DNA of 64,000 nt. It comes from Arthrobacter sp. ISL-48. Lineage in GTDB: Bacteria > Actinomycetota > Actinomycetes > Actinomycetales > Micrococcaceae. A program made the position numbers and the translations under genes. Location: assembly GCF_018613805.1 (NCBI RefSeq), contig NZ_JAGGPL010000001.1, forward strand, positions 62,001-126,000, given 5' to 3'. Under the pieces are notes generated by a model, which worked only from the letters and a program-made list of their open reading frames with translations, did not search any database and was not told where the DNA came from. Below, one piece after another: positions 3,906-52,624 of the stretch. Each line of letters begins with the position of its first letter. The stretch's first letter is position 1.

Positions 3906-3934
3906 ATTGTATTCGAACATATATTCGAATACAA
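3906..3934 (-). promoter_or_regulatory. Promoter of the DUF222-like gene
   Basis: On the minus strand: TTGTAT (3929-3934), a 17-base spacer (3912-3928), TACAAT (3906-3911), 7 bases, then the ATG at 3898. Both hexamers match consensus well, and the transcript would be leaderless. The spacer is occupied by a LexA-type palindrome. Confidence 0.75.
3913..3928. promoter_or_regulatory. Putative LexA (SOS) box
   Basis: TCGAAC-ATAT-ATTCGA differs at one base from the actinobacterial SOS box TCGAAC-N4-GTTCGA. It is the core of a perfect 10-bp inverted repeat (3908-3917 and 3924-3933). It fills the -35/-10 spacer of the DUF222-like gene, an ideal repressor position. DUF222/13E12 genes of M. tuberculosis include known LexA targets, which supports the call. 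Confidence 0.7.
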
Positions 3935-4009
3935 GAGTTCCTCCTGTTCGGCGCCAGCGGATAACCACTTTGACCGCCGGCCAGGAGGTTGGTGTGAGAA
4001 CATCGGCTC

Positions 4010-5245
4010 ATGACCTCGCGTGCCACGGCAACACCTTCCAGGGCGCCCAGGAGCTCATCTGCCGCGGACCGCTTGCGCGGCATCGACGCGGCCCGCGGGT
4101 TGGCGCTTCTTGGCATGATGGCTACGCACCTGCTTCCCACCTTCGAGGCCAATGCGAGCCTCACTCCCACCTGGATCGGCCTCACGTTCTCGGGCCGCGC
4201 CGCTGCCCTGTTCGCGGTGCTGGCTGGGATCGGACTGGCACTGTCCACGGGAAAGCAGGTGCCGGCAGCGGGGAGGGCCCTGGGCGCGGCCCGCCGAGGC
4301 ATCGCGCTCCGCGCGGGGGTGATCGCCGCCGTCGGGCTAACGCTGGGCGGGCTGGAAGTAAACCTGGCCATCATCCTGGTCCATTACGCCGTGCTGTTTC
4401 TGTGTGTGCTGCCGTTCCTGGGCCTGAGACCGGGGATCCTGTGCGCCTGGGCCGCCGGCTGGATCCTGGCGTCCCCGGTGTTGGCCTACCTGCTTCGTCC
4501 CTGGCTCATGGCGTCCTATCCGCCGCTGAAGCTTGACCACAATCCGTCCTGGGAGGACCTGGCCACGCCCTCCCGGCTTTTGGGCGACGTCTTCTTCACC
4601 GGTTACTACCCGGTGTTCCAGTGGATGTCGTATTTGCTGGTGGGCCTGGCCATCGGCCGGCTTGCTTTGACGAAGGCCAGGATTCCGGTCCTGCTGCTGG
4701 CCGGCGGCACGGTACTGGCTGTCCTGGCCAAGGCTTTGGGCACGGCAGCGATGGAGAACTGGGGCGGCAGGGCCGCCCTCCAGGAGGTACTGAATGCCCC
4801 GGGCTACCCCCTGGACAGCGTGCTGCAGGTCAACCTCGCGGGCGTGCAACAGGAGGGATCGTGGTGGTGGCTGGCGTCAGCGGCACCGCACTCCGGCACT
4901 ACCCTTGACCTGGCCCACACCTCCGGCGTGGCGGTGGCTGTGGTGGGTGCGTGCCTGTTGCTTGGCAGGCTGGCTGACTGGCTCAACCTTGACTTGCTGC
5001 TGCCGCTGCGCGGAGCGGGCGCCATGACGCTGACCTTGTATTCGGCTCATGTGTGGGTGGTGGCGGCGTTCTACCTGAAGCCGCTTCCGGCTGGCTGGAC
5101 GGAAGACGGGATGTACTTCGCGCATGCGGCCACAGCCATCATTGTGGGCATGGTGTTTGTCCTGCTGAAATGGCGGGGCCCGCTCGAATGGCTGGGACAT
5201 GCCGCGAACCAACTGGGCCGCCATGAAGGAAACAAACTCCGTTAA
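4010..5245 (+). CDS. DUF418/HGSNAT-type multi-pass membrane protein
   Basis: 411-residue integral membrane protein with about 10 hydrophobic segments. The N-terminus RLRGIDAARGLALLGMMATH is typical of the heparan-alpha-glucosaminide acetyltransferase-like domain, with a conserved Asp and His. The C-terminal GAMTLTLYSAHVWVV is typical of DUF418. Such proteins are putative transmembrane acyl transferases; the acceptor is unknown. It is transcribed divergently from the DUF222-like gene, across the LexA box. GAACAT lies 6 bases before the ATG, one mismatch from TANNNT. Confidence 0.8.
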   Translation: MTSRATATPSRAPRSSSAADRLRGIDAARGLALLGMMATHLLPTFEANASLTPTWIGLTFSGRAAALFAVLAGIGLALSTGKQVPAAGRALGAARRGIALRAGVIAAVGLTLGGLEVNLAIILVHYAVLFLCVLPFLGLRPGILCAWAAGWILASPVLAYLLRPWLMASYPPLKLDHNPSWEDLATPSRLLGDVFFTGYYPVFQWMSYLLVGLAIGRLALTKARIPVLLLAGGTVLAVLAKALGTAAMENWGGRAALQEVLNAPGYPLDSVLQVNLAGVQQEGSWWWLASAAPHSGTTLDLAHTSGVAVAVVGACLLLGRLADWLNLDLLLPLRGAGAMTLTLYSAHVWVVAAFYLKPLPAGWTEDGMYFAHAATAIIVGMVFVLLKWRGPLEWLGHAANQLGRHEGNKLR

Positions 5246-18797: not shown

Positions 18798-18836
18798 AGC
18801 GGCGGGGCCGGTGGATCATCCACCGGCCCCGCCGCT
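18798..18836 (-). terminator. Strong hairpin after pnp
   Basis: A near-perfect palindrome: 19-base arms (18798-18816 and 18818-18836) around one base, folding as an 18-bp GC-rich stem with a TCA loop. It lies 41 bases after the pnp stop. There is no U-tract, as is common in actinobacterial intrinsic terminators. It could equally be a barrier to 3' exonucleases. Confidence 0.7.
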
Positions 18837-39482: not shown

Positions 39483-40874
39483 CGATTCGGCCCGGATGGC
39501 CGCAAAAGCGGAACTGACTGCGTCCACCGCGGTGCCGACGTCGTCAGTGTCAGTGCTCCAGTTGCTGACTGACACGCGCAGCACATCGCGGCCCTGCCAG
39601 TGTGACCCTGACATCCAGACCTTGCCGTCCTGGATGACCTTGGCTGTCACGGCCCGGGTGGTGGCATCGTCTCCGAAAGCGAGCGAAACCTGGGTGTAGT
39701 CCACAGCGTTCAGGACCTCGATGCCGTCCACCCGGTCCAGTCGCTCGGCGATCGAGGAAGCTGCTTCGGCCAGCCCGCTGACCTGCGCTGCCACGCCCTC
39801 CCGGCCCAGTGACCGGAGAGCGGCCCACACCGGAACACCGCGGCCGCGCCGGGAGAGCTCCGGCACTTTCTGGAACGGATCGCCAGGGCCTTCTGCGTCC
39901 TGGACCAGGTAGCTGGTGGTCAGTCCCATGGCACTGCGCAGCGCAAGGGAATCGTTAACCACTGCGATGCCGCAGTCGTACGGAACGTTGAGGGTCTTAT
40001 GGGCATCGGTGCCCCACGAGTCAGCCGCGACCATGCCTTCAGTGAGGTAGGCCAATTCCGGGACGGCCGCCGCCCACAGGCCGAAGGCTCCGTCGATGTG
40101 GACCCAGGCGCCATGGCGCCGGGCTACCCGGATTGCGTCGTCGAACGGGTCGAAGGCTCCTGAATGCAGGTTCCCGGCCTGGAGGCAGACAAGGGCGGGC
40201 CCAGCACCCTCTGAGAGCAGCCTGTCCAACTCGATGGGAAGCAGCCTCCCCTGGGCATCAGCGGGCACCGCAGTGGGCGCGCCCAGGCCGAGGTAGCGCA
40301 GCCCCAGGTCGATGGTCTCGTGGCGTTCCTGCCCCGCAAAGCACCTGATCCGTGGTGCTCCTGACAGTCCGTCCCGGTCAAGATCCCAGCCTGCATCAGT
40401 CATCAGCCGCCATCGTGCGGCGGCCAGCCCGGTGAAGTTGGCCATGGTTGCGCCGGTGGTAAAGCCGACGTCAGCCTCCTCCGGCAGCCCCAGGAGCTGC
40501 AGCAGCCAGTGGCCGGCGGCTTCCTCGATGGCAGCCATGGCAGGTGTGGCGTAGCGCAGCCCTGAGTTCTGGTCCCAGGCGCTGACCAGCCAGTCCGCCG
40601 CCAGGGCCGCGGGAAGGGTGCCGCCGATCACCCAGCCGAAGAACCGGCCGGAAGGCATGGCCATCAGTCCAGGCTCTGCCTTGAGTGCGAGGTAGTCCAC
40701 GACGTCGGCGGCGGGCATCCCCGCTTCCGGGAGGGGACCGCCGAAGTCAGCGGCCAGATCATGGGCTGTCACTCCGGGGCCGACGTGCCGGCCGGGCAGG
40801 CTCCCCAGCCAGTCACTGGCGTGGCGGGCCGCAGCGGACAATGCTGCCGAATACGGTTCAGCGCCTGCGGACAT
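39477..40874 (-). CDS. PLP-dependent decarboxylase (group II)
   Basis: 465 residues, related to aromatic-L-amino-acid and glutamate decarboxylases. GRFFGWVIGGTLPAALAADW, FTTGATMANFTGL, WVHIDGAFGLW (Asp261) and the PLP lysine in TDAHKTLNVPYDCG (Lys293) are present. The substrate is not known; an aspartate-aldehyde lyase activity is possible in such homologues. The ATG follows TAGCAT by 6 bases, which looks leaderless. Confidence 0.87.
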   Translation of the reverse strand: MSAGAEPYSAALSAAARHASDWLGSLPGRHVGPGVTAHDLAADFGGPLPEAGMPAADVVDYLALKAEPGLMAMPSGRFFGWVIGGTLPAALAADWLVSAWDQNSGLRYATPAMAAIEEAAGHWLLQLLGLPEEADVGFTTGATMANFTGLAAARWRLMTDAGWDLDRDGLSGAPRIRCFAGQERHETIDLGLRYLGLGAPTAVPADAQGRLLPIELDRLLSEGAGPALVCLQAGNLHSGAFDPFDDAIRVARRHGAWVHIDGAFGLWAAAVPELAYLTEGMVAADSWGTDAHKTLNVPYDCGIAVVNDSLALRSAMGLTTSYLVQDAEGPGDPFQKVPELSRRGRGVPVWAALRSLGREGVAAQVSGLAEAASSIAERLDRVDGIEVLNAVDYTQVSLAFGDDATTRAVTAKVIQDGKVWMSGSHWQGRDVLRVSVSNWSTDTDDVGTAVDAVSSAFAAIRAESG

Positions 40875-40880
40875 ACCAGC

Positions 40881-40886
40881 ATGCTA
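40881..40886 (-). promoter_or_regulatory. Decarboxylase -10 box (leaderless promoter)
   Basis: TAGCAT, GCTGGT, then the ATG at 40874. Confidence 0.6.
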
Positions 40887-40946
40887 CGCCTGCGCCGGAC
40901 CAGGCACGAGGCCTCGCCCAGGACCGTCTGCCCGGAACGGAACCCG

Positions 40947-42794
40947 TCACGGGGTTCCCTCGTCCCTGGCGGCAGCGGGCGCGTCTTTGTCCTCAGCCGT
41001 GCGGATGGCCCAGGCTGCGTTGACGAGGCCGATATGGCTGAAAGCCTGTGGGAAATTTCCGAGCAGCTCGCTGCTGTCCGGGGCAACCTCTTCGGCCAGC
41101 AGGCCCAGATCGGTGGCGAATCCCGCGGCCCGTTCGAAAACGGTCCGGGCGCGCCGGTTCTGACCGGCCAGGGCCAGGGCATGGGCCAACCAGAAGGTGC
41201 ACAGGAGGAACGTTCCTTCCTTCCCGGTGAGCCCGTCGTCGGCCTGATACCGGTACACCAGACCCCGGCTATCGGTGAGCCGGTCTTCGATGGCGTCGAT
41301 CGTTGCCAGCATCTTGGGATCGTCGGCGGCCACGAACCCCACGATGGAGAGCATCAGCGCCGATGCGTCGAGGTCCTCTGAGCCGTAGGCCTGGGTGTAG
41401 GCGTGGGCTGTCTCGTTCCAGCCGTTCAAGAGGATGGAGCCAGCCAGCTGCGCCCGGGTCTGTATCCAGTACGGAACCCGCTCTTCCGCGTTCAGAATCC
41501 CGGCGAGGCTGATGGCCCGGTCAACGGCCACCCAGCACATCAGCTTTGAATGAAGGTAGTGCCTGGGTGCGCCGCGAACCTCCCAGATGCCCTGATCCGT
41601 GGACTGCCAACGCGATGCTGCAGCGTCGGCCGCATCGGCAAGGAAATGCCGCGTCCCGGGCTCCAGATCGTTGAGGTACTCAGGGAGGGCCGCGGCGGCG
41701 TCGAGGAGTTCGCCGTAGACGTCGAGCTGGCGCTGGTCCCAGGCGCCGTTGCCCACCCGCACCGGGGCGCTGTCGCACCAGCCCGGAAGATGGGCCAGTT
41801 CGCGTTCGGACAGGTCCCGTTCGCCACCGATGCCGTACATGATCTGCAGATCGTCGCCGTTGCTCAGCCGGCCGGCGGCTGCCGACGCGAGGAACTGGAA
41901 AAACTTCCCGGCTTCGTCCGGACACGCAGCCACCCACAACGCCTGCAGGGTCATGCTGGCGTCCCGGATCCAGGTGTACCGGTAGTCCCAGTTCCGGGTG
42001 CCGCCGACGACTTCGGGCAGGGACGTTGTCGGGGCCGCGACGATCGCGCCGGTCGGATAGAACGTCAGTGCCTGCAGAATCCTGCCGCTGGAAGCGACGA
42101 GGTCCTGCCAGGGTCCGTCGTAGCTCTGATGCAGCTGCGACCAACTGTCCCAGCCCTCCAGCGTGTCCTCCAGCCGGCGGGCGATCTCCTCCTGGCTCCA
42201 GAACGGCGGCGGTACTGGCCCGGCGTTCCGGTGGTGAAGGGCGAATCCCAGAACGTCACCGGTACGGAGGACCGGCTTCGCCTGCGCTTGGCCACCCTCG
42301 AAGTCGAAGGGGACCGGGGTGGAAAAGGCCATCACGTCGGCCCCGCCGTGGACGAAGATTCCGGTGGCCGTGTCCTCAAGGAGTGGCCGGACCAGGCCGT
42401 ATTCCGGCCGCGGCGCGAACGTCACCTCCATCTCGACTTCGCCGTCGGTGCAGGCAACATGCCGCAGCAATGTTCCGGGAGCCCCCGCCCCGAGTTCGTG
42501 GCCCCGGCTCCCTTCACCCAGGACCAGGGCATCGGTGACTGTCACGGTTCCGGCGGCTGTGGTGTGGACCGTCTCGAGCACCATCGTCGGCCCGAGGTAC
42601 CGGCGGGTCGAGGAATGTGGGGCCGCAGGCCGGATCGACCAGTAGCCTGCGTCGTCGCCCAGGATCCGTCCGAACACCGAGGGGCTGTCAAAACGGGGGA
42701 AACACAGCCAGTCCACCGAACCCGAGGCGCTCACTAGCGCGGCGGAGCGGCAATCAGAGAGAACGCCGTAGTTGGCGATGGGCTCGCTGGTCAT
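40947..42794 (-). CDS. Glycoside hydrolase family 15 (trehalase/glucoamylase-like)
   Basis: 615 residues, cytoplasmic (no signal). An N-terminal trehalase-like beta domain (YGVLSDCRSAALVSASGSVDWLCFPRFDSPSVFGRIL) precedes an (alpha/alpha)6 barrel with VGGTRNWDYRYTWIRDASMTLQAL, DVYGELLDA and CWVAVDRAI. Actinobacterial proteins of this layout include trehalases and glucoamylases; the substrate cannot be fixed from sequence. AGGG lies 7 bases before the ATG. The 3' end is 72 bases from the decarboxylase start. Confidence 0.9.
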   Translation of the reverse strand: MTSEPIANYGVLSDCRSAALVSASGSVDWLCFPRFDSPSVFGRILGDDAGYWSIRPAAPHSSTRRYLGPTMVLETVHTTAAGTVTVTDALVLGEGSRGHELGAGAPGTLLRHVACTDGEVEMEVTFAPRPEYGLVRPLLEDTATGIFVHGGADVMAFSTPVPFDFEGGQAQAKPVLRTGDVLGFALHHRNAGPVPPPFWSQEEIARRLEDTLEGWDSWSQLHQSYDGPWQDLVASSGRILQALTFYPTGAIVAAPTTSLPEVVGGTRNWDYRYTWIRDASMTLQALWVAACPDEAGKFFQFLASAAAGRLSNGDDLQIMYGIGGERDLSERELAHLPGWCDSAPVRVGNGAWDQRQLDVYGELLDAAAALPEYLNDLEPGTRHFLADAADAAASRWQSTDQGIWEVRGAPRHYLHSKLMCWVAVDRAISLAGILNAEERVPYWIQTRAQLAGSILLNGWNETAHAYTQAYGSEDLDASALMLSIVGFVAADDPKMLATIDAIEDRLTDSRGLVYRYQADDGLTGKEGTFLLCTFWLAHALALAGQNRRARTVFERAAGFATDLGLLAEEVAPDSSELLGNFPQAFSHIGLVNAAWAIRTAEDKDAPAAARDEGTP

Positions 42795-42873
42795 GGGTAC
42801 ACCCTGCCTGATTCATTCAAGACGGTCCAGTGCGTCTTAAATGGCGTCGTGGACGTCGGATACGCGTAGGACA

Positions 42874-43668
42874 CTAGGCGAAGTTGTCCTGCCAGACGTC
42901 ATAGCCGAGCTTGATGATCAGGGCACCCACCACGAGCAGGAAAACAACCCTGATGAAGCGGCTCCCCTGCTTCACGGCGGTCCGTGCGCCGAGGTAGCCG
43001 CCCGCCATGTTGGCCAGGCCCAGCACCAGGCCGACACCCCACAACAGGGAGCCGTGCGGCAGGAAGAACAGCAGGGCACCGGCGTTCGTGGCCATGTTCA
43101 CGATCTTGGCTTTGGCGCTGGCCTCCAGGAAGGCGTATCCCATGGCCGACACCAGGGCAATGATCAGGAAGGAACCCGTGCCCGGACCGATCAGCCCGTC
43201 GTAAAAGCCGATCACTGCCCCGATCAGGCAGGCCACCAGATAGTGGGTACGGCCGTCGTGGCGCAGCACCGTGATGTCCCCGACGTCAGGCTTGAGGGCA
43301 GTGAAAAGCGCGACGGCGACCAGCGCGGCCACGATGATGGGCTTGAAGACACTGGACGGAAGCGAAGCCGCCAAGACGGCGCCCCCGAAGCTGCCGGCCA
43401 GCGCGATCACCGCCATCGGCAGGGCAGTCCGGAGGTCCGGCCGAACGCGCCGGTAGTAGGTGACGGCACTGGTGGTAGTGCCGAAAATGGAGCCCATCTT
43501 GTTGGTGGCGAGGGCCTGGACAGGCGTGATGCCAGGCACCAGCAGCAGGGCGGGCAGCTGGAGCAGTCCGCCCCCGCCCACCACTGCGTCCACCCAGCCT
43601 GCAGCGAACCCAGCCACCACAATCAGGATGATCGTAGTGAGCTGGATCGACTCAAATCCCGAAACCAC
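42874..43668 (-). CDS. TSUP/TauE-SafE family permease
   Basis: 264 residues with about eight hydrophobic segments. GFAAGWVDAVVGGGGLLQLPALL and the repeat-half motif GFYDGLIGPGTGSFLIIAL are diagnostic. The family exports or takes up small organosulfur anions such as sulfite or sulfoacetate. It begins 21 bases after proS, so it is probably in that transcript. The GTG start lacks a good ribosome-binding site. Confidence 0.93.
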   Translation of the reverse strand: MVSGFESIQLTTIILIVVAGFAAGWVDAVVGGGGLLQLPALLLVPGITPVQALATNKMGSIFGTTTSAVTYYRRVRPDLRTALPMAVIALAGSFGGAVLAASLPSSVFKPIIVAALVAVALFTALKPDVGDITVLRHDGRTHYLVACLIGAVIGFYDGLIGPGTGSFLIIALVSAMGYAFLEASAKAKIVNMATNAGALLFFLPHGSLLWGVGLVLGLANMAGGYLGARTAVKQGSRFIRVVFLLVVGALIIKLGYDVWQDNFA

Positions 43669-43689
43669 CTGCTTACAGCACGTCGGGCG

Positions 43690-45501
43690 TCAGCTGCTGT
43701 GGACGGCGTTGACCACATAGTCAACGGCCTTGTCCACTGCCACGTTTTCGGCGACTCCGGTGCGGCGGTCCTTAATCTCCACCACGCCGTCCACGAGTCC
43801 CCGGCCGACGGCGAGGATGGTGGGGACGCCGACCAGCTCGGCGTCGCCGAACTTCACGCCGGGGGAAACCTTCGGACGGTCGTCATAAATGACGTCCAGG
43901 CCTGCTGCTTCAAGCTCCGATGCCAGCTGCTCGGCGGCGGCGAAGATCTCCTCGCCGCGGCCGACCGCCACGATATGGACATCGGCCGGGGCGACGGCGC
44001 GGGGCCAGGTCAGGCCCTTCTCGTCGTGGTTCGACTCAGCCAGGGCCGCGACGGCCCGGGTGACGCCCACACCGTAGGAACCCATGGTGACCACTACCTG
44101 CTTGCCGTTCTGGTCGAGGACCTTCAGCTCAAGGGCTTCGGCGTACTTGCGGCCCAACTGGAAAATGTGGCCCATTTCGATCCCACGGGCGGTCTCCAGC
44201 GGTCCGGAGCCGTCCGGTGCGGGGTCCCCTTCACGAACTTCGGTGCATTCGATGACGCCGTCCCAGCTGAAGTCCCGTCCGGCCACGAGGCCAAAGACAT
44301 GCTTGCCTGTTTCGTTGGCACCCGTAACCCAGGCGGTGCCGCTGACCACGCGGGGGTCCACGAGGTACAGCAGCTTGGTTGAGCCTTCGCTGCCCAGCAA
44401 GGGTTCATCCAGCGCCAGGCCCGGGCCAAGGTAGCCCTTGACGATGAGGGGGTGCTTCTTGAGGTCGTCCTCGTTGGCCGCTTCCAGTCCGATCTCTCCG
44501 GCGATGGGCAGGAAGGAGCCGATGTTGGCCTCCACCCGCTTGAGGTCCACTCCGCGGTCTCCGGGGACACCGATCACCACGATCTGGCGCTCACCGGTGG
44601 GCAGGGTGACCGCGAGCACCACGTTCTTGAGCGTGTCAGCGGCAGTCCAGGCGCCGCCGTCGGCCTCTGCGCGGGGAGCAAGCTGGTTGGCAGCCGCCAC
44701 GAGCGTTTCAATGGTGGGGGTATCAGGGGTGTCCAGGACCTCGGCGGGCGCAGCCCCGGTGAAGTCGATCTCAGCAGGAACCACCGTGGTCACTGCCTCG
44801 ACATTGGCGGCGTAACCCCCGGCTGAGCGCACGAACGTGTCCTCGCCGATCTCAGTGGGGTGCAGGAACTCCTCGCTCTTGGAGCCGCCCATGGCACCAG
44901 CCGTTGCGGCCACCGGAATCACTTCCAGGCCCAGGCGCTCAAAGATCCTGAGGTAGGCGCCGCGGTGCGCGGCGTAGCTGGCGTCCAGTCCGGCATCGTC
45001 CACGTCGAAGGAGTAGGAGTCCTTCATGATGAACTCGCGGCCGCGGAGGAGGCCGGCGCGGGGACGCGCCTCATCGCGATACTTGTTCTGGATCTGGTAG
45101 AGGCTCAGCGGCAGGTCCTTGTACGAGGAGTACAGGTCCTTGACCAGGAGGGTGAACATTTCCTCGTGCGTGGGGGCCAGCAGGTAATCGGCGCCCTTGC
45201 GGTCCTGCAGGCGGAAGAGGCCTTCGCCGTACTCGGTCCAGCGGTTGGTGACCTCATACGGCTCCCGCGGCAGCAGAGCCGGGAAGTGGACTTCCTGGGC
45301 GCCGATGGCGGCCATCTCCTCACGGATGACGGCCTCGACTTTCCGCAGGACACTGAGCCCCAGCGGCAGCCAGGTGTAGATGCCAGGTGCCGCACGGCGG
45401 ATGTAACCGGCGCGGACCAGGAGCCGGTGGCTGGCGACCTCTGCGTCGACGGGATCTTCACGCAGGGTGCGCAGGAAAAGCTGGGACAGTCTTAGGACCA
45501 C
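43690..45501 (-). CDS. proS: Prolyl-tRNA synthetase
   Basis: 603 residues, bacterial type with the editing insertion. [14 protein letters not shown] at the N-terminus, class II motif 2/3 stretches ([24 protein letters not shown] split here, [15 protein letters not shown]) and the editing domain (about 225-400) are present. The upstream frame is open to 45627, but the GTG at 45501 gives the family N-terminus. A TauE-type permease follows in the same direction. Confidence 0.96.
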
Positions 45502-45568
45502 TGGTCGGTATCCGTTTCTGGGGAAGTGCTGCTTGGGAAAGCAGAGCCGGGCAAATCGTCTGGGTACT

Positions 45569-45574
45569 AATCTA
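45569..45574 (-). promoter_or_regulatory. Candidate proS -10 box
   Basis: TAGATT on the minus strand, about 68 bases before the proS GTG, giving a leader of roughly 60 bases. No clear -35. Confidence 0.35.
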
Positions 45575-45607
45575 CCGGCAAGCGCACGTATCCCATGCGG
45601 AGCAATA

Positions 45608-45673
45608 GAGCCACGCCCGGGATGCAAAGCCCCTGGCCCCCATCGGGCTGGTCATCGCTTCCGGGCGTGGCTC
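45608..45673. ncRNA. Stable hairpin element upstream of proS
   Basis: A perfect 13-bp stem GAGCCACGCCCGG / CCGGGCGTGGCTC encloses 40 bases. Inside, GATG (45621-45624) pairs with CATC (45653-45656) and AGCCC (45628-45632) with GGGCT (45645-45649). There is no T-tract on either side and no coding frame. It may be a small RNA, a structured leader or a terminator for incoming transcripts. Confidence 0.5.
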
Positions 45674-45733
45674 CACGGCCATTGACGCCTTTGTTTCTGG
45701 TGAGGACTGGTGAGACCGCCCACGCCACTCCAG

Positions 45734-45755
45734 CGCATTAGGTCGAACCTATGCG
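45734..45755. promoter_or_regulatory. Small palindrome, possible operator
   Basis: CGCATTAGGT-CGA-ACCTATGCG: 9 paired bases with one extra T on the left. It lies about 45 bases upstream of the exporter -35 box. The binding protein is unknown. Confidence 0.35.
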
Positions 45756-45798
45756 ATCACCGCCGCCTTGACAAGGGTTTTTTCCAATCGAAGGGTTA

Positions 45799-45827
45799 TT
45801 GACGGCTGAAGTCACGAGGCATAGCTT
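45799..45827 (+). promoter_or_regulatory. Promoter of the ABC exporter-TetR operon
   Basis: TTGACG (45799-45804), 17-base spacer, TAGCTT (45822-45827). Predicted start near 45834. One of the best promoters in the window. Confidence 0.75.
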
Positions 45828-45851
45828 TAATTCATCACCTGGTGAATTAAA
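45826..45851. promoter_or_regulatory. Palindromic operator, probably for the TetR protein
   Basis: TTTAATTCA-TCACCTGG-TGAATTAAA: 9-bp perfect arms with an 8-base centre that itself contains TCACC-T-GGTGA. It overlaps the -10 box and the transcription start, so binding would block initiation. The operon it controls ends in a tetR gene, suggesting autoregulation. Confidence 0.7.
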
Positions 45852-45877
45852 ACCGGGTTCCCCCGATGGAGGCATCC

Positions 45878-46735
45878 ATGTCCCACGCAGCAGCTGCAAC
45901 CAGTACCATCCCGGGGAGCAAGGCAGCCGTGGTGACAAGGGGCCTCCGTGTGACCAGGGGCAAGGTCCCTGTCCTGCGGGGGCTGGACTTTTCCATCCCC
46001 ACGGGCCGGATCACCGGACTGCTGGGGCCCTCCGGCAGCGGCAAAACCACCCTGATGCGGGCCATCGTGGGAGTCCAGCGGTTGTCCTCCGGCTCCGTTG
46101 AAGTCCTGGGTCTCCCCGCGGGACATCCCACTCTCCGGCACCAGGTGGGATACGTCACCCAATCACCCAGCGTGTACCCCGACCTGACGGTGGAAGCCAA
46201 CGTCAGGTATTTCGGCGCCATGCACAGCAAGGGCCGGGCCGAGGTGGCCGAGGCGATTGCCGCCGTCGGACTTGAAGCGCAGGCGAGGCAAAAAACCGCC
46301 GATCTGTCCGGCGGACAGCTTAGCCGTGTGTCACTGGCCTGTGCACTGGTTGCGCACCCCACACTCCTGGTACTGGACGAGCCCACCGTGGGCCTTGACC
46401 CAGTGCTCCGGGCTGACCTTTGGGAGCGTTTTCGGTCGATGGCCGAGTCCGGCACCACGCTGCTGGTTTCCAGCCATGTCATGGAGGAGGCAAGCCACTG
46501 CGGATCGCTCCTGCTGCTGAGGGAGGGCCTGCTGCTGGCCCAGCTGACGCCCCAGGAGCTGAGCCAGCGCGGGCACAGCGCAGACCTCGAAAGGGCTTTC
46601 CTGCTCATCATCCAGAACGCGGAAGACGGCAGTGCAGGGTCCCCGGGAACGGTACCTCCTCAGGCGGGCCAGGTTCCCGAAAGCCATTCGACTCCTGAAA
46701 GCCATCAAACCCCGGAAAGCACAGTGCGGTCATGA
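45878..46735 (+). CDS. ABC exporter ATP-binding protein
   Basis: 285 residues. Walker A GPSGSGKT (50-57), signature LSGGQLSRVSLACAL, Walker B LLVLDEPTVGLDP and switch histidine in VSSHVMEEASHCG are intact. An ABC-2 type (drug or polyketide resistance) exporter ATPase with a Pro/Ser/Glu-rich tail containing ESHSTPESHQTPEST. ATG 45878 is chosen over 45866 because GGAGG lies 5 bases upstream. The next gene overlaps by 4 bases. Confidence 0.92.
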   Translation: MSHAAAATSTIPGSKAAVVTRGLRVTRGKVPVLRGLDFSIPTGRITGLLGPSGSGKTTLMRAIVGVQRLSSGSVEVLGLPAGHPTLRHQVGYVTQSPSVYPDLTVEANVRYFGAMHSKGRAEVAEAIAAVGLEAQARQKTADLSGGQLSRVSLACALVAHPTLLVLDEPTVGLDPVLRADLWERFRSMAESGTTLLVSSHVMEEASHCGSLLLLREGLLLAQLTPQELSQRGHSADLERAFLLIIQNAEDGSAGSPGTVPPQAGQVPESHSTPESHQTPESTVRS

Positions 46736-47487
46736 ACCTGCTGATGATGCTGGCTACAACCAGGCGGGTCCTGGACCAGCTGCGGCACGACCACCGCAGT
46801 GTGGCGCTGATCCTGGTGGTGCCGGCCCTTCTGCTGACGGCCGTTTACTTTCTCTTCGAGAACGAGACGCTGCCACCGGGCGTACCCCGGACGTTCGACC
46901 GTGTGGGCCTGATGATGCTGGCCATCTTCCCGTTTGTCGTGATGTTCCTGGTCACGTCCATCACCATGCTTCGCGAGCGGACCTCCGGGACCTTGGAGCG
47001 GCTGCTGACTACCCCCATCCACAAGGCCGATCTGCTCTTCGGCTACGGGCTGGCGTTTTCCATCATGGCCGCCCTGCAGTCACTGGTTGCCACGGCCGTT
47101 GCCTACTGGATTTTCGGCCTGGATATCAAAGGAAGCCCCTGGCTGGTGGTCCTGATTGCTGTGATTAACGCGGTCCTGGGCGTCGCGTTGGGCCTGTTCT
47201 GTTCGGCCTTTGCCCGGACGGAGTTCCAGGCCGTGCAGTTCATGCCGGTGGTGGTGGTGCCGCAGATACTACTCTGCGGGCTCTTTGTTGCCCGCGACAG
47301 GATGAACGAGGTCCTGGAAGCCGTCTCGAACGTCCTGCCGCTCACGTTCTCGGTGGATGCACTGCAGGAGATTGCGGCCAACGCGGACGCCACCGGCCAG
47401 CTGTGGCAGGATGCCGTCGTCATGCTGGTCATCGTCCTGGGCGTGCTGGTGCTCGCTTCCCTCACCCTGCGCCGGCGGACTGCATGA
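46732..47487 (+). CDS. ABC-2 type exporter permease
   Basis: 251 residues with six hydrophobic segments. TSITMLRERTSGTLERLLTTP is the typical loop after the second segment. GLFCSAFARTEFQAVQFMPVVVVPQILLCGLF is split across the later ones. It forms an exporter with the preceding ATPase; the cargo is unknown. The start overlaps the ATPase stop (ATGA) and the stop overlaps the tetR start (ATGA). Confidence 0.92.
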   Translation: MNLLMMLATTRRVLDQLRHDHRSVALILVVPALLLTAVYFLFENETLPPGVPRTFDRVGLMMLAIFPFVVMFLVTSITMLRERTSGTLERLLTTPIHKADLLFGYGLAFSIMAALQSLVATAVAYWIFGLDIKGSPWLVVLIAVINAVLGVALGLFCSAFARTEFQAVQFMPVVVVPQILLCGLFVARDRMNEVLEAVSNVLPLTFSVDALQEIAANADATGQLWQDAVVMLVIVLGVLVLASLTLRRRTA

Positions 47488-48164
47488 CCGGAACCCAGCG
47501 TGTCGGGCACGCCGGCAAGGGAGCAACCAGCGCCCCGGGCCAGCGGACGGCATCCGGCCGGAGGGGCCGCCGGGGCGGGACCACGGAAACCCGGGCCCAG
47601 ATCCTGGATACGGCACGCCGGTTGTTCGCGGAGCGCGGCTTCGACGGCACCACACTCCGGCAGGTAGCCCGCGAAGCCGGGGTGGACCCTGCCATGATCC
47701 ACCACTTCTTCAAGGGCAAGGACGAACTGTTCGCCCGAAGCGTGGCCCTGCCGGCGGACCCGGCCCAGGTCCTTGAGGGCGTTGACCGCCATGATCCCGG
47801 GCATCGTGCCGAGGCGATCGTGTGGGCGGTGCTCCATCTCTGGGAGAGCCCCGCACAGCACAGCCTCGAGGCGTTTCTCCGGGGCGCCATCGGCTCGAAG
47901 GCAAAGACCCTGCTGCTGCGGGAAATGGTGACCCGGACCGTCCTCAGCCGAATCATGGCCGGAGTCCCGGGAGCGCCGGAGGAAGTGGCCACCCGAGCAA
48001 ACCTCGTGGCAACGCAGATGGTAGGCCTGATGCTGGTCCGCTACGTGGTCAGGCTCGAACCCCTGGCGTCGGCCCCACCCGAGGACGTGGTGGCCCTCAT
48101 TGCACCCAACGTCCAGCACTATCTGACGGGCGAGCTAAAAGTGATAGGGCTGTCAGCTACTTGA
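47484..48164 (+). CDS. TetR family transcriptional regulator
   Basis: 226 residues. A basic N-terminal stretch of about 35 residues precedes the HTH: TETRAQILDTARRLFAERG, FDGTTLRQVAREAGVDPAMI, HHFFKGKDELF. The C-terminal part is a TetR_C-type ligand domain. It is the third gene of the exporter operon and probably the repressor acting at 45826-45851. Its 3' end overlaps the convergent lipoprotein gene by 8 bases. Confidence 0.93.
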   Translation: MTGTQRVGHAGKGATSAPGQRTASGRRGRRGGTTETRAQILDTARRLFAERGFDGTTLRQVAREAGVDPAMIHHFFKGKDELFARSVALPADPAQVLEGVDRHDPGHRAEAIVWAVLHLWESPAQHSLEAFLRGAIGSKAKTLLLREMVTRTVLSRIMAGVPGAPEEVATRANLVATQMVGLMLVRYVVRLEPLASAPPEDVVALIAPNVQHYLTGELKVIGLSAT

Positions 48165-48915
48165 TCTGGGCCCCCGCCTGATCCAACATCGCCCCGGCCC
48201 GTGAGATTGCGGCTTCTTCGGTCGCTCCACCCATCGAAATAACGCTAATCAGCACACTGTGGACGACAGCCTGCGCCGTGATGATTGACTGCTTCCGGCC
48301 ATCGGGCAGGGTGGTGTCAGTCCGGTAGGCCAATGTCCCGGGGACCGAGCTGAGTCCGTCAATCGTGGTGAGCGCCACGTCGAGTTTTTTTCCTGCCGCC
48401 GTAATTGACATGTTCGCGCACTTGGATATCTCGCCCGCTTGGGCCATCCCCTTCGCCAGGAATGCGGGGTCCAGCCCGGAAGCCATGGACACGGTTGTGG
48501 TCGCTCCCTCGGCTGCGTCCATGCTGGTCCCCACCGCAACTGTAGCGCCGGCAACGGATGGTGCAGTGCCGGAGATGGCCATTTCCTGGCACTCCGCCGG
48601 TTCCACGGACATGGAGGAGAGAAGGGCTTTGGTCTGGTCCAGGGATCCGGTCAAGTCGGCGCTGGACATCACTGAGAGTTTGACTCCCTTTGCGTCCTTC
48701 AGCTGACCTACCAGAGCGCCCAGTTCATCGCTTGTATAGGACTTTGCTGGAGTCACGCTCGGCGAAGGCGTTTGGCTGGGCGAAGGCGTGGAGGCGGCAG
48801 ATGTTTCGTTAGCCGGGTGTTGGGCCCCATTGTCTGTGGGAGCGCCGGCGCAGCCCGTGAGGCCGGTCATCAACAGAGCAGAGATTCCGATGGCGCGCGC
48901 CATGACCTTATTCAA
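48157..48915 (-). CDS. Secreted lipoprotein, unknown function
   Basis: 252 residues. Signal peptide with lipobox LTGC (Cys22), then a Ser/Thr/Pro linker (35-58) and a soluble domain of about 190 residues that is rich in Ala/Thr/Ser. It would be lipid-anchored on the outer face of the membrane. No family is recognised. The start is a TTG at 48915 with GGGGA 4 bases upstream; ATG 48903 is an alternative. Confidence 0.75.
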   Translation of the reverse strand: MNKVMARAIGISALLMTGLTGCAGAPTDNGAQHPANETSAASTPSPSQTPSPSVTPAKSYTSDELGALVGQLKDAKGVKLSVMSSADLTGSLDQTKALLSSMSVEPAECQEMAISGTAPSVAGATVAVGTSMDAAEGATTTVSMASGLDPAFLAKGMAQAGEISKCANMSITAAGKKLDVALTTIDGLSSVPGTLAYRTDTTLPDGRKQSIITAQAVVHSVLISVISMGGATEEAAISRAGAMLDQAGAQIK

Positions 48916-48953
48916 GTGTTCCCCTGGGTTTAGTGGGGACAGCAGTCTGTCCC

Positions 48954-49853
48954 CTAAAAGAGAACTGTAGCGAAGGTACCCACTTCACAGAATCCGACTC
49001 GCTGGTACGAGGCCCTGGCACGCGAATTGAAGCCGTTGACGTAGAGGCTCGTGACTGGTGCGATCTTCCTGGCCTGTTCCACTACTGCAGCCATGTAGCC
49101 CGCGCTCAGGCCCTGCCCCCGGTAGAGGGGGTTCATCCACACTCCCTGGATTTGAGTCACCTCGGCCGTCACTGCTCCCAGCTCGGCCTTGAACACCACT
49201 TCCCCGGCCGAATTGAGGTGCACCAGCGAATGCCCTTGCCTGATCAGCCCCTCCACCCGGCGGCTGTAGAACTCCCTGCCGCCAAGGAAAGGCGAATAGC
49301 CCACTTCCTCTTCGAACATGGCGGCGCAGGCGGGGAGGATGCGGTCAAAATCGGCCAGCCGGCCAAGTGTCAGATCCTGGTTCGGTTCCACTGACGGGGG
49401 CCCGGCGATGGTCATCAGTGGCTGTTCAGACCGCACTTCGTGGGCCGCGTGGCCAAGCTCCTCCAGTTCGGCATGCAGGGCAAGGACAGGCTCCGCGGGA
49501 CCAAAGGCGGAGGCATAGCGGCGGCCCGCACTGTTCGCAGCCGCGGCAACGGGACCGGCATAGGAAGGGTCCAGCTGGATCGGAACCAGGTTGGCTCCTG
49601 TCCAGCACGCCCCCACCAGGATGCCGTCGTCGAACACACCCAACACGCTGGCGCCGCCGCTGGTGGGACCGGCGGTACCGGCCGCGCGGAGGTGCGCCAG
49701 GATAAAGACGTTGGCTACCGGATCCTGCAGGGCAAGGCACCGGAGAGCGGGCGTGTCCGCCCCGCCCAGGGTCCTGACCAGCACCCCTGCGGAAGCGGGG
49801 CCTTCCTTATGAGACGCTAACCACGGGGCTACCCTTGACAGCATCTTCGCCAT
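48954..49853 (-). CDS. GNAT family acetyltransferase (Rv2867c-like)
   Basis: 299 residues: an N-terminal DUF4081-type domain ([18 protein letters not shown]) and a C-terminal GNAT domain with [27 protein letters not shown] and [14 protein letters not shown]. The position next to ispG matches Rv2867c in M. tuberculosis. The substrate is unknown. If it starts at the ATG at 49853 it overlaps ispG by 47 bases; ATG 49844 or GTG 49784 are alternatives. Confidence 0.87.
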
Positions 49854-50973
49854 CGGCCTCCCCCATCTCTTCAGCGATACGCATGGCCTCTTCGATCAGT
49901 GTCTCAACAATCTGGCTCTCAGGCACAGTCTTAATGACTTCGCCCTTCACAAAGATCTGGCCCTTGCCGTTGCCTGATGCGACTCCAAGATCGGCTTCGC
50001 GGGCTTCGCCGGGTCCGTTGACCACGCAGCCCATAACAGCCACACGGAGCGGGATTTCCATACCCTCGAGGCCTGCAGTGACCTGTTCGGCCAGGGTGTA
50101 GACGTCCACCTGGGCCCGTCCGCATGACGGGCAGGAGACAATTTCCAGCTTGCGCGGGCGCAGGTTGAGCGACTGCAGGATCTGGTTGCCGACCTTGATC
50201 TCCTCCACTGGCGGGGCGGAGAGGGAAACCCGGATGGTGTCCCCGATGCCGCGCGAGAGCAGGGCTCCGAAGGCGGTGGCCGATTTGATGGTTCCCTGAA
50301 ATGCCGGGCCGGCCTCGGTAACGCCGAGGTGCAGGGGCCAGTCACCCTTTTCTGCCAGCATTTCGTAGGCGGCCACCATGATGACGGGGTCGTTGTGTTT
50401 GACGGAGATCTTGAAGTCGTGGAATCCATGCTCCTCGAACAGGGAAGCCTCCCATACGGCCGATTCCACGAGTGCCTCAGGAGTGGCCTTGCCATACTTC
50501 TTCAAGATGCCCGGCTCGAGGGAGCCCGCATTCACGCCGATGCGGATGGACGTGCCATGGTCCTTGGCGGCCTTGGCGATTTCCTTGACCTGGTCATCGA
50601 ATTTGCGGATGTTGCCGGGGTTGACCCGCACCGCGGCGCAACCTGCCTCAATGGCCGCAAACACGTACTTGGGCTGGAAGTGGATGTCCGCGATGACCGG
50701 GATCTGGGACTTGCGGGCAATGATGGGCAGCGCCTCGGCATCATCAGCTGACGGGCAGGCGACCCGCACGATGTCGCAGCCGGAGGCCGTGAGTTCGGCG
50801 ATCTGCTGCAGGGTGGCGTTGATGTCCGTGGTGGGCGTGGTGGTCATGGACTGCACACTGATGGGCGAGTCCGAGCCCACTCCCACCGAACCGACCTTGA
50901 TCTGGCGCGTCTTGCGGCGGGGGGCAAGGACGGGCGGCGGTGCTGACGGCATTCCCAGGCTGACCGAGGTCAC
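49807..50973 (-). CDS. ispG: 4-hydroxy-3-methylbut-2-en-1-yl diphosphate synthase
   Basis: Iron-sulfur enzyme of the MEP isoprenoid pathway. 388 residues. [42 protein letters not shown] and the cluster cysteines in [16 protein letters not shown] and [10 protein letters not shown] are present. AGGAG lies 5 bases before the GTG start. dxr, another step of the same pathway, is 3 kb upstream on the same strand. Confidence 0.97.
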
Positions 50974-51022
50974 GTGGACTCCTAGAGTTGGAAGGTGGAT
51001 CTGTGAAGGAAGAGACCCGGGA

Positions 51023-51316
51023 TCAGGACGCGTGCGCGGCGAGAATGCCGATCACGGGTGTCCACTCGGTGGTGCGGATACCCGCGATGGTCCCGGCGAG
51101 GGCGAAGGGATCCTGCTTGAGCAGTTCGTTCAGCTCAGACTCGTCCTGGGCCTTGAAGATCAGTAGGGCCCCTGCTCCATCACCATACGGTCCGCTGGTC
51201 AGCAGCCGGCCATCATCGGCAAGCCCGGAAAGCCAGGCGCGGTGTGCGGGGCGGTGCTCATCGCGGGCGGGTGCGGAATCGGCGGCGTAAACGTACTCAA
51301 CGGCAAAAACAGTCAT
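51023..51316 (-). CDS. YciI family protein
   Basis: 97 residues, ferredoxin-like fold. [22 protein letters not shown] (split family pattern), [20 protein letters not shown] and the conserved His/Asp pair are typical of YciI. The biochemical role is unclear. The ATG follows TAGGGT by 6 bases. It lies 49 bases before ispG and may be read through into it. Confidence 0.85.
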
Positions 51317-51322
51317 ACCGCT

Positions 51323-51328
51323 ACCCTA
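51323..51328 (-). promoter_or_regulatory. yciI -10 box (leaderless promoter)
   Basis: TAGGGT, AGCGGT, then the ATG at 51316. Confidence 0.6.
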
Positions 51329-51395
51329 TCGCCCTGGCTGCCTTCCTTCCCATCCGAAGAGCAGCCGGAACCGGGAACCACTCGCCAACTGGCGC

Positions 51396-51923
51396 TCAGC
51401 CAAGAAACAGCACTTTCACCGTGGCCGCGATACCTGCTGCCCACAGCATGGAAGTAAGCGTCCCGATAATGAACCGTTCGGCCGCCACCGGAGTTTCCTT
51501 CAGCTCCGCGAACCTGCCCAGGCCCTTGATGGCCACAACGTACGCGATAGCCACCGGCTGTCCGGCGAGGATGGCAAGGCAGACAGCCAGCCGCTCCAGG
51601 ACGCCGATGATCGCCCCGCCGCGAAGGATCCGCTGGCCTGGATCAGCAGGCTGGCCTGGTCCGGACGACGGCGTCTGGCCGGCTTCGGCCGTCAGCTCGC
51701 CATCGATCATCTGGGCGGCGCCCGCTCCAACCCCGGTGGGGACGGCGTCCACCGTGACATCGGCCGACGGATCCTCCGCAGCTTTCCGTGCAGAATCGTC
51801 GCCTGAGGTGGCGGCGTCGGCTTTGTCGTCAATTGTCCTGGCCAGCTTGAACACGAGGGCGGTCACGGGCCAGCCCAGAAGTCCGGCCACCAGGAGGGCC
51901 CCCGTAATCCAGAGTGCGTTCAC
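51396..51923 (-). CDS. Membrane protein paired with SatD (DUF3307-like C-terminus)
   Basis: 175 residues. One N-terminal segment (about 4-28), an acidic soluble loop (30-100), then two segments (about 105-135 and 152-174). The part GQPVAIAYVVAIKGLGRF and IIGTLTSMLWAAG resembles the conserved end of DUF3307 membrane proteins that neighbour satD in other bacteria. It overlaps the satD-like stop by 4 bases, so both proteins are made together. It may be the membrane effector or anchor of the unit. Confidence 0.7.
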   Translation of the reverse strand: MNALWITGALLVAGLLGWPVTALVFKLARTIDDKADAATSGDDSARKAAEDPSADVTVDAVPTGVGAGAAQMIDGELTAEAGQTPSSGPGQPADPGQRILRGGAIIGVLERLAVCLAILAGQPVAIAYVVAIKGLGRFAELKETPVAAERFIIGTLTSMLWAAGIAATVKVLFLG

Positions 51924-52624
51924 CGGTCTCCTTCTTTAGGTGTTCCAGCCGCCTCGACGCTCGCGGATGGAACGATTTGGGAGTGCGCATAATCCAGGAG
52001 CATCGCCGCTGCTGGCCTGGCAGCCCATTCTTCCTGCCAGCCGGACCTCAGCAGGGCACGGCTCACCGATTGTTCCGTTATTCCCAGTTCCTTGGCCACT
52101 TGCTTCTGACTGCCGTGCTTACCGCCGCTCCGCTGGATGCTGCGTAGCTGGTCAACAACCTTCCATTGGGCGTCGGTCCGTTCCAGGACGAGCCGCCCGA
52201 TCAGGCGGAGCACAGCTTCGGCGTTGGCGCAGCTCCTGGCTCCTTCCTTGGCGTCGTGGGGTATATCCATTCCACGGCCGATACTGCCGGAGACCACTGA
52301 CAATGGGACGTGGCCCGCCGCACTCTTGGCCTCGTCAACTGCCTTCCGGGCCGCGACGAAGCCGCTTCCGGTTCCCTCGCGTGGCGCGGCGGCGGCGGCA
52401 AGCCGTACGCTGCCGATACCGATTCCCACATACCAATGCCCGGCACGCAATGCATGGAGGGCGATATCCACTACCTCGTCGGGATCTCCCACCACGCCCT
52501 GGATTTCGTCGCCGACGGAGCGTTCAAAGACGGCCGAGGTGAGTCTGCGCAGTTGCGAGACGAGTTCGGGGACCCGGTCCACGTCCGTGCGGCTTCCGCG
52601 CTGGTCGATAGTCATGACGTACAT
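51920..52624 (-). CDS. SatD family protein: cyclase-like N-terminus and HTH C-terminus
   Basis: 234 residues. N-terminal part (1-115): TIDQRGSR with Asp7, a helix, FERSVGDEIQGVV with Asp39-Glu40, a helix, then WYVGIGIGSVRL and GSGFVAARKAVDEA. This order of strands, helices and two carboxylates is that of class III cyclase/GGDEF palm domains (inference). C-terminal part (about 165-215): helix-turn-helix QKQVAKELGITEQSVSRALL. ATG 52624 is preferred because TACGGT lies 7 bases upstream. Three operator-like sites lie in and above its promoter. Confidence 0.75.
   Translation of the reverse strand: MYVMTIDQRGSRTDVDRVPELVSQLRRLTSAVFERSVGDEIQGVVGDPDEVVDIALHALRAGHWYVGIGIGSVRLAAAAAPREGTGSGFVAARKAVDEAKSAAGHVPLSVVSGSIGRGMDIPHDAKEGARSCANAEAVLRLIGRLVLERTDAQWKVVDQLRSIQRSGGKHGSQKQVAKELGITEQSVSRALLRSGWQEEWAARPAAAMLLDYAHSQIVPSASVEAAGTPKEGDR

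Follow-up and report, generated by a model that had tools for sequence, protein, structure and literature searches.

In Mycobacterium smegmatis, a three-gene efflux operon (MSMEG_3762/63/65), corresponding to Rv1687c/86c/85c of Mycobacterium tuberculosis, has the gene order ATPase-permease-TetR (PMC5660060). According to the available parts of the papers on this system, deletion of MSMEG_3765 raises expression of the operon 55-fold and complementation restores it, the regulon defined by arrays consists of MSMEG_3762 and MSMEG_3763 only, and purified MSMEG_3765 shifts a 36-bp fragment in gels (PMC5660060), the sequence of which is given in a second paper (PMC10663510). The same parts report that rifampicin and ciprofloxacin, and not streptomycin, weaken MSMEG_3765 binding and that both of these drugs induce the operon (PMC10663510). 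The pump is described as exporting rifampicin and ciprofloxacin, and loss of the permease in M. smegmatis lowers ethidium export and increases sensitivity to the two drugs (PMC7744416). Induction was also reported under acid-nitrosative stress and in macrophages (PMC5660060, PMC10663510, and PMC7744416), as was an influence of the pump on biofilm formation (PMC7744416).

Here, we describe an operon of similar organization in a 64,000-nucleotide stretch (the window) of the genome of Arthrobacter sp. ISL-48 (4.54 Mb in 37 contigs). The operon is very likely an autoregulated export operon, with the TetR encoded by its third gene acting as a repressor from an operator on its own promoter. Its exporter is of the same two-gene ABC-2 kind as the daunorubicin exporter DrrA/DrrB, and its TetR has a full-length match (residues 10 to 206; E value, 5.8e-33) to the "Putative TetR-family regulator" of PDB entry 2np3. 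Identity with the DrrAB daunorubicin exporter was rejected, as both curated cutoffs were missed by far (152.8 of 312.45 bits for TIGR01188 and 46.7 of 223.05 bits for TIGR01247). The permease scored 137.5 bits against TIGR00025 (DrrB family), slightly below the cutoff of 146.9. The term "drug exporter" would be a fair guess for this operon, taken from its mycobacterial homologue.

Genes, promoter, and palindrome of the Arthrobacter operon

The features of the operon are collected in Table 1. The ATPase and the ABC2_membrane permease both scored above their Pfam cutoffs, which places the pair among ABC-2 type exporters. The third gene was confirmed as a tetR, as the first-pass annotation had read it: the protein has an N-terminal TetR_N helix-turn-helix (cutoff for PF00440, 24 bits) followed by a TetR-type C-terminal domain (cutoff for PF17920, 26.2 bits). 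Overlaps of 4 nt, with an ATG on the preceding stop codon, join the ATPase gene to the permease gene and the permease gene to tetR.

Table 1. Features of the export operon, in coordinates of the window
Feature	Coordinates	Strand	Evidence
-35 element TTGACG	45799..45804	+	Sequence; TTGA-type here in 43/44 rows
-10 element TAGCTT (TAnnnT type)	45822..45827	+	Sequence; 8 nt ahead of core in 41/44 rows
Palindrome	45826..45851	.	Sequence
Conserved operator core ATTCATCA-CC-TGGTGAAT	45830..45847	.	44-row conservation and tetR co-occurrence in 150 genomes
Ribosome-binding site GGAGG	45868..45872	+	Sequence; 5 nt ahead of ATG 45878
ABC transporter ATP-binding protein, 285 aa	45878..46735	+	PF00005, 108.4 bits (cutoff, 25)
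ABC-2 type permease, 251 aa	46732..47487	+	PF01061, 109.3 bits (cutoff, 26.9)
TetR-family regulator, 226 aa, probable repressor	47484..48164	+	PF00440, 64 bits; PF17920 (TetR_C_16), 97.2 bits

Actinobacterial promoters of one type carry TTGAC and TAnnnT elements, and TTGACG-N17-TAGCTT, with a spacing of 17 nt, fits this type. The promoter was identified through its conservation (see below) and not by a strict E. coli-type sigma-70 scan, which gave 0 promoters. The earlier statement that a strong promoter underlies the palindrome thus holds for the promoter and not for its strength.

The palindrome (TTTAATTCA TCACCTGG TGAATTAAA) has the perfect 9-bp arms that were noted at first sight, separated by an 8-nt spacer; taken further inward, it has a 2-nt center and 11 of 12 matching pairs. 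The ATG of the ATPase gene begins 26 nt past its end. Order-1 Markov surrogates served as the control for a count of palindromes in which 11 or more of 12 pairs match and the gap is 0 to 8 nt. The window held 23 overlapping placements, representing 12 distinct places, whereas 50 surrogates averaged 2.7 placements and never exceeded 8, and the 250-bp intergenic region at 45628-45877 held one such palindrome (at least one in 0.55% of 2,000 surrogates). Because 12 distinct places in the window are equally good, the palindrome alone is modest evidence, and it is conservation, not palindrome statistics, that decides that the site is real. A plasmid search with the sequence at 45700-45900 gave no match.

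Other inverted repeats were observed in the window. A perfect 13-bp inverted repeat at 45608-45673 (GAGCCACGCCCGG, with 40 nt between the arms) lies in what is presumably the 5' leader of the divergently oriented upstream gene, which was read as a prolyl-tRNA synthetase gene (proS) from its open reading frame (ORF) alone, and each arm is unique in the genome. Folding of the leader strand (45740-45500) gives -101.4 kcal/mol (z, -2.25), a value reached by 3 of 200 shuffles, and the repeat, which has no Rfam match, is a possible attenuator. At 3906-3935, just inside or ahead of a minus-strand ORF of 214 aa, there is a strong palindrome (TTGTATTCGAACATATATTCGAATACAA) that presumably resembles the actinobacterial LexA/SOS box. 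A perfect G+C-rich palindrome (GGGCCGGTGGATCATCCACCGGCCC; 12 of 12 pairs) at 18802-18832 may be either a terminator or an operator.

Conservation of the operator and its co-occurrence with tetR

A TetR scan of named genomes yielded 58 loci, 43 of which belong to the Arthrobacter group (L034 to L075 and L080), with the closest matches in Arthrobacter and Pseudarthrobacter. The ATPase and permease genes precede tetR on the same strand in all 43 loci, and the operator is kept in every one of them, with 16 of 16 fixed positions in 25 loci, 15 in 16 loci, and 14 in 2 loci. Across 44 rows (the window and the 43 named loci), the operator contains 1.75 bits per column versus 0.16 bits in the flanks. 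The consensus of the core derived from this conservation is ATTCATCA-NN-TGATGAAT (18 bp), which falls slightly inside the 45826-45851 interval first proposed for the site. The TTGA...TAnnnT pair, with the elements 16 to 18 nt apart, was found in 43 of the 44 rows by a rule that also took TTGCC and a one-base shift (CTTGA), and the -10 element starts exactly 8 nt ahead of the core in 41. Because of this position of the -10 element, the operator covers the start site, which is expected near 45834-45836.

In one of the 43 loci (L080, Arthrobacter sp. Hiyo8, positions 4001 to 4560; also the contig of L210), tetR matches in two pieces and the operator is perfect; the repressor may have been lost naturally, or the split may be an artifact of sequencing.

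The column pattern bears on whether the palindrome could be an RNA or DNA structure, such as a terminator or attenuator, with no protein site. A terminator-like pattern does overlap it on the minus strand (45867-45852), but that stem lies in the unconserved flank columns, the core conserves sequence and not pairing alone, and an Rfam search of 40000-52000 gave no match. We regard such a structural role as extremely improbable.

The association of site and gene was examined in a sample of 150 genomes of the genus, 73 of which had a TetR match at an E value of 1e-30 or better. A close TetR relative (at least 61% identity; split in two in G132) is included in 71 of these, and the two genomes with only a paralogue of 40 to 43% identity (G047 and G138) were recounted as lacking tetR. 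The exact motif ATTCAYCANNTGRTGAAT was present in 63 of the 150 genomes, and its backwards control in none. It occurred in 61 of the 71 genomes with a tetR orthologue versus 2 of the 79 without one (both, 61; orthologue only, 10; motif only, 2; neither, 77), for which the Fisher P value of 1e-28 is too strong because the species of the genus are related and their independence is overstated. Near-perfect sites (14 to 15 of 16 positions) are carried by 9 of the 10 orthologue-only genomes; in the tenth (G119), the stretch ends short of the site, and a named contig of equal length (L057) has 15 of 16. Both motif-only exceptions are accounted for: the contig of G048 stops past the site, within the permease gene, and the match in G098 falls within an ORF (2714-4351 of L209) whose product looks like a solute-binding protein.

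The window's genome contains the exact motif only once. A search for a wider regulon with a relaxed form of the motif and up to 3 mismatches gave 61 places in this genome versus 24 for the backwards control; among the matches listed, one has 0 mismatches, none has 1, and three have 2. This single exact copy and the tracking of the motif with this tetR in the genus argue against the palindrome belonging to a different regulator, be it another TetR or a global factor, while the operon's own TetR acts elsewhere, as does the in vitro binding of the homologous pair, MSMEG_3765 and its 36-bp fragment, in the available parts of the mycobacterial papers. Similar sites (TTCAAC-N4-GTTGAA) of TetRs of the subfamily ahead of other genes speak for such a regulator, which we nevertheless consider improbable. 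The repressor-operator pair put forward in the first-pass annotation is supported by footprint conservation, by site-gene co-occurrence, by the presence of only one good site in the genome, and by the gene order and half-site shared with the MSMEG_3765 system, and it remains our preferred candidate.

For this pair, we propose that a dimer of the third-gene TetR would occupy the 18-bp operator, which starts just past the -10 element and spans the expected start site, and would thereby block RNA polymerase. Binding of a small molecule to the C-terminal domain of TetR would then release the protein from the operator, exporter and repressor would be made together, and the repressor would shut the loop again. 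The operator, the promoter geometry, and the linkage to this tetR are established insofar as comparison among loci can do so. By analogy with the M. smegmatis system, TetR would bind the operator, repress, and come off in response to a drug-like ligand, and we would only conjecture that each site holds one dimer, that the regulon is one operon, and what the ligand and the cargo may be. The switch is well supported and of an ordinary kind, and the same DNA signal very probably guards related pumps in other actinobacteria, among them the mycobacterial one.

Relation to the mycobacterial system and to sites outside the genus

The exact published 36-mer was found in 1 of 396 genomes of the mycobacterial genus (G860) and with up to 3 mismatches in 9 of 396. 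The G860 proteins are 58% (ATPase), 58% (permease), and 39% (TetR) identical to those of the window, and by eye, the residues named in the available part of the MSMEG_3765 paper sit at their stated numbers in the G860 TetR. The window operon is like MSMEG_3762/63/65 in gene order, in the homology of all three proteins, in the TTCATC half-site, and in having its operator on the promoter. It differs in that the mycobacterial operator is 36 bp long and runs into the ATPase coding sequence, whereas the window has one site, ahead of the ATPase gene. The TetRs of the window and G860 are reciprocal best hits, but the best and second hits on the mycobacterial side score nearly the same (130.5 versus 129.7 bits); no ATPase or permease homologue could be detected near the second of these genes in the 5.9 kb fetched. 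A tree of 113 TetRs, from which rows with stops, duplicate sequences, or 150 or fewer aligned residues were left out, was dropped as proof of orthology, since the backbone linking the window and the mycobacteria is poorly resolved and long branches meet there. Because of the near-tied hit and this tree, and because the window has no 36-bp double operator, we describe the system as homologous to and apparently working like MSMEG_3762/63/65 rather than as its strict orthologue.

Of the 14 positions listed for the rifampicin pocket obtained by docking, the window TetR shares 5 (W120, R133, L145, A176, and V180), differs at 8, and leaves 1 unaligned, so that a rifampicin-type ligand is not to be assumed. 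This divergence favors a reading in which the TetR activates or merely tunes itself and has no drug-responsive role, the cargo being endogenous or made under stress. The available mycobacterial reports of an effect on biofilm formation and of induction not by drugs alone but also in macrophages and under acid-nitrosative stress point in the same direction. The same reports also describe the drug sensitivity and reduced ethidium export of the strain without the permease and the weakening of MSMEG_3765 binding by rifampicin and ciprofloxacin, which argue against this reading, and a site over the -10 element and start region suits repression. We consider it a possible but less likely account, and we retain repression by the operon's own TetR as the preferred one.

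A class-wide search gave a TetR match at 1e-25 in 204 of 394 genomes, and 39 class stretches were fetched, plus one same-genus paralogue. Sites were scored as the number of positions, out of 12, that match TTCA(T/A)C-N4-G(T/A)TGAA. An ATPase at least 50% identical lies beside the TetR in 26 of the 39 stretches, and all 26 score 11 to 12; among the 15 named loci outside the Arthrobacter group, an ATPase of this similarity is present in 11, of which 10 score 11 to 12. In total, 36 of the 37 loci outside the genus with this ATPase score 11 to 12, the exception being Myceligenerans (L089; ATPase 60% identical), which has a TTCCTC-type palindrome scoring 10. The 17 loci without such an exporter include 13 that score 10 or less and four that score 11 to 12 (L188, L084, L085, and L192). 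The site precedes other ABC exporters, each ending in a TetR, in L188 and L084, and it precedes a FAD-dependent oxidoreductase (NF004833; 620 bits; cutoff, 488), with a TetR at the end, in L085. Because these sites front other genes, the half-site is not limited to the exporter type of the window; it stays with the TetR subfamily.

TTCAAC-N4-GTTGAA sites, scoring 12, were also found at the same-genus paralogues L198, L213, and L214, and the sister TetRs with this site are about 40% identical. The sites lie at position 2387 in L198, 2701 in L085, 2655 in L213, and 2472 in L214. The gene between site and TetR in L198 looks like that of the same oxidoreductase as in L085; the L085 protein scored 78.8 of 800 bits against the rifampin monooxygenase model, far under the cutoff. 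A portable switch of this kind would have as cargo ABC exporters of two or more kinds and, with the sister TetRs, a FAD-dependent monooxygenase.

The recognition helix reads VDPAM(I/V)HH in the window type and VD(P/A/S)ALVHH in the mycobacterium-type loci. A strict covariation of helix and operator is unclear, since TTCAAC also occurs with VDPAMIHH (Micromonosporaceae and Rhodococcus). Gene order varies as well: tetR lies ahead of the ATPase gene on the same strand, with the operator between them, in L162, L164, L165, L172, L173, L187, L189, and L197, and the window, with tetR last, is unlike these tetR-first families.

One operator or two

The published 36-mer consists of TTCATTGCATGATGAC and TTCATCGCGCGATGAA side by side. 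At all 20 loci of the mycobacterium kind (16 mycobacterium-type loci, L166, and L159 to L161), a second site scoring 10 to 11 of 12 is found at a distance of exactly 16 bp from the best-scoring one, and no other offset between 5 and 40 bp scores above 9; only 17 of the 20 are independent of the motif, because L224 to L226 were fetched by motif match. In 57 Arthrobacter-group rows (the window, 43 named, and 13 fetched), which represent 53 distinct neighborhoods including the window because four loci were fetched twice, no score at 16 bp exceeds 8. On these alignments, the mycobacterial "36-bp palindrome" reads as a pair of abutting 16-bp operator copies and Arthrobacter has one, a contrast that is possibly new. 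The simplest reading would give mycobacteria two dimers, spaced about 1.5 helical turns apart, and Arthrobacter one; with this phasing, the mycobacterial dimers would lie on roughly opposite faces of the DNA. Loss of the 3' end of the motif abolishes MSMEG_3765 binding in the available part of the original study (PMC5660060), a result compatible with a damaged second site and equally with one long site.

The available parts of the papers on the mycobacterial operator describe one long palindrome and have no tandem-site wording, their sole related mention concerning EthR. A literature search with the letters of the motif found no paper, one on Arthrobacter TetR, ABC transporters, and operator palindromes in efflux found none, and one on Arthrobacter TetR and ABC-2 found, by title, none about this operon. 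In the literature searched, as far as its text was available, no paper states the one-site/two-site contrast or a portable half-site, and these two parts may be new.

Taking both parts together, we think it likely that the TTCA(T/A)C pair is an old, portable switch of Actinomycetes set on varied cargo and that the 36-bp mycobacterial site would be two operators holding two dimers, in contrast to one in Arthrobacter. For this soil genus, the comparison gives an exact operator for the regulator of a pump whose mycobacterial relative matters for drug efflux, and the contrast between one and two sites suggests how the mycobacterial operator is built.
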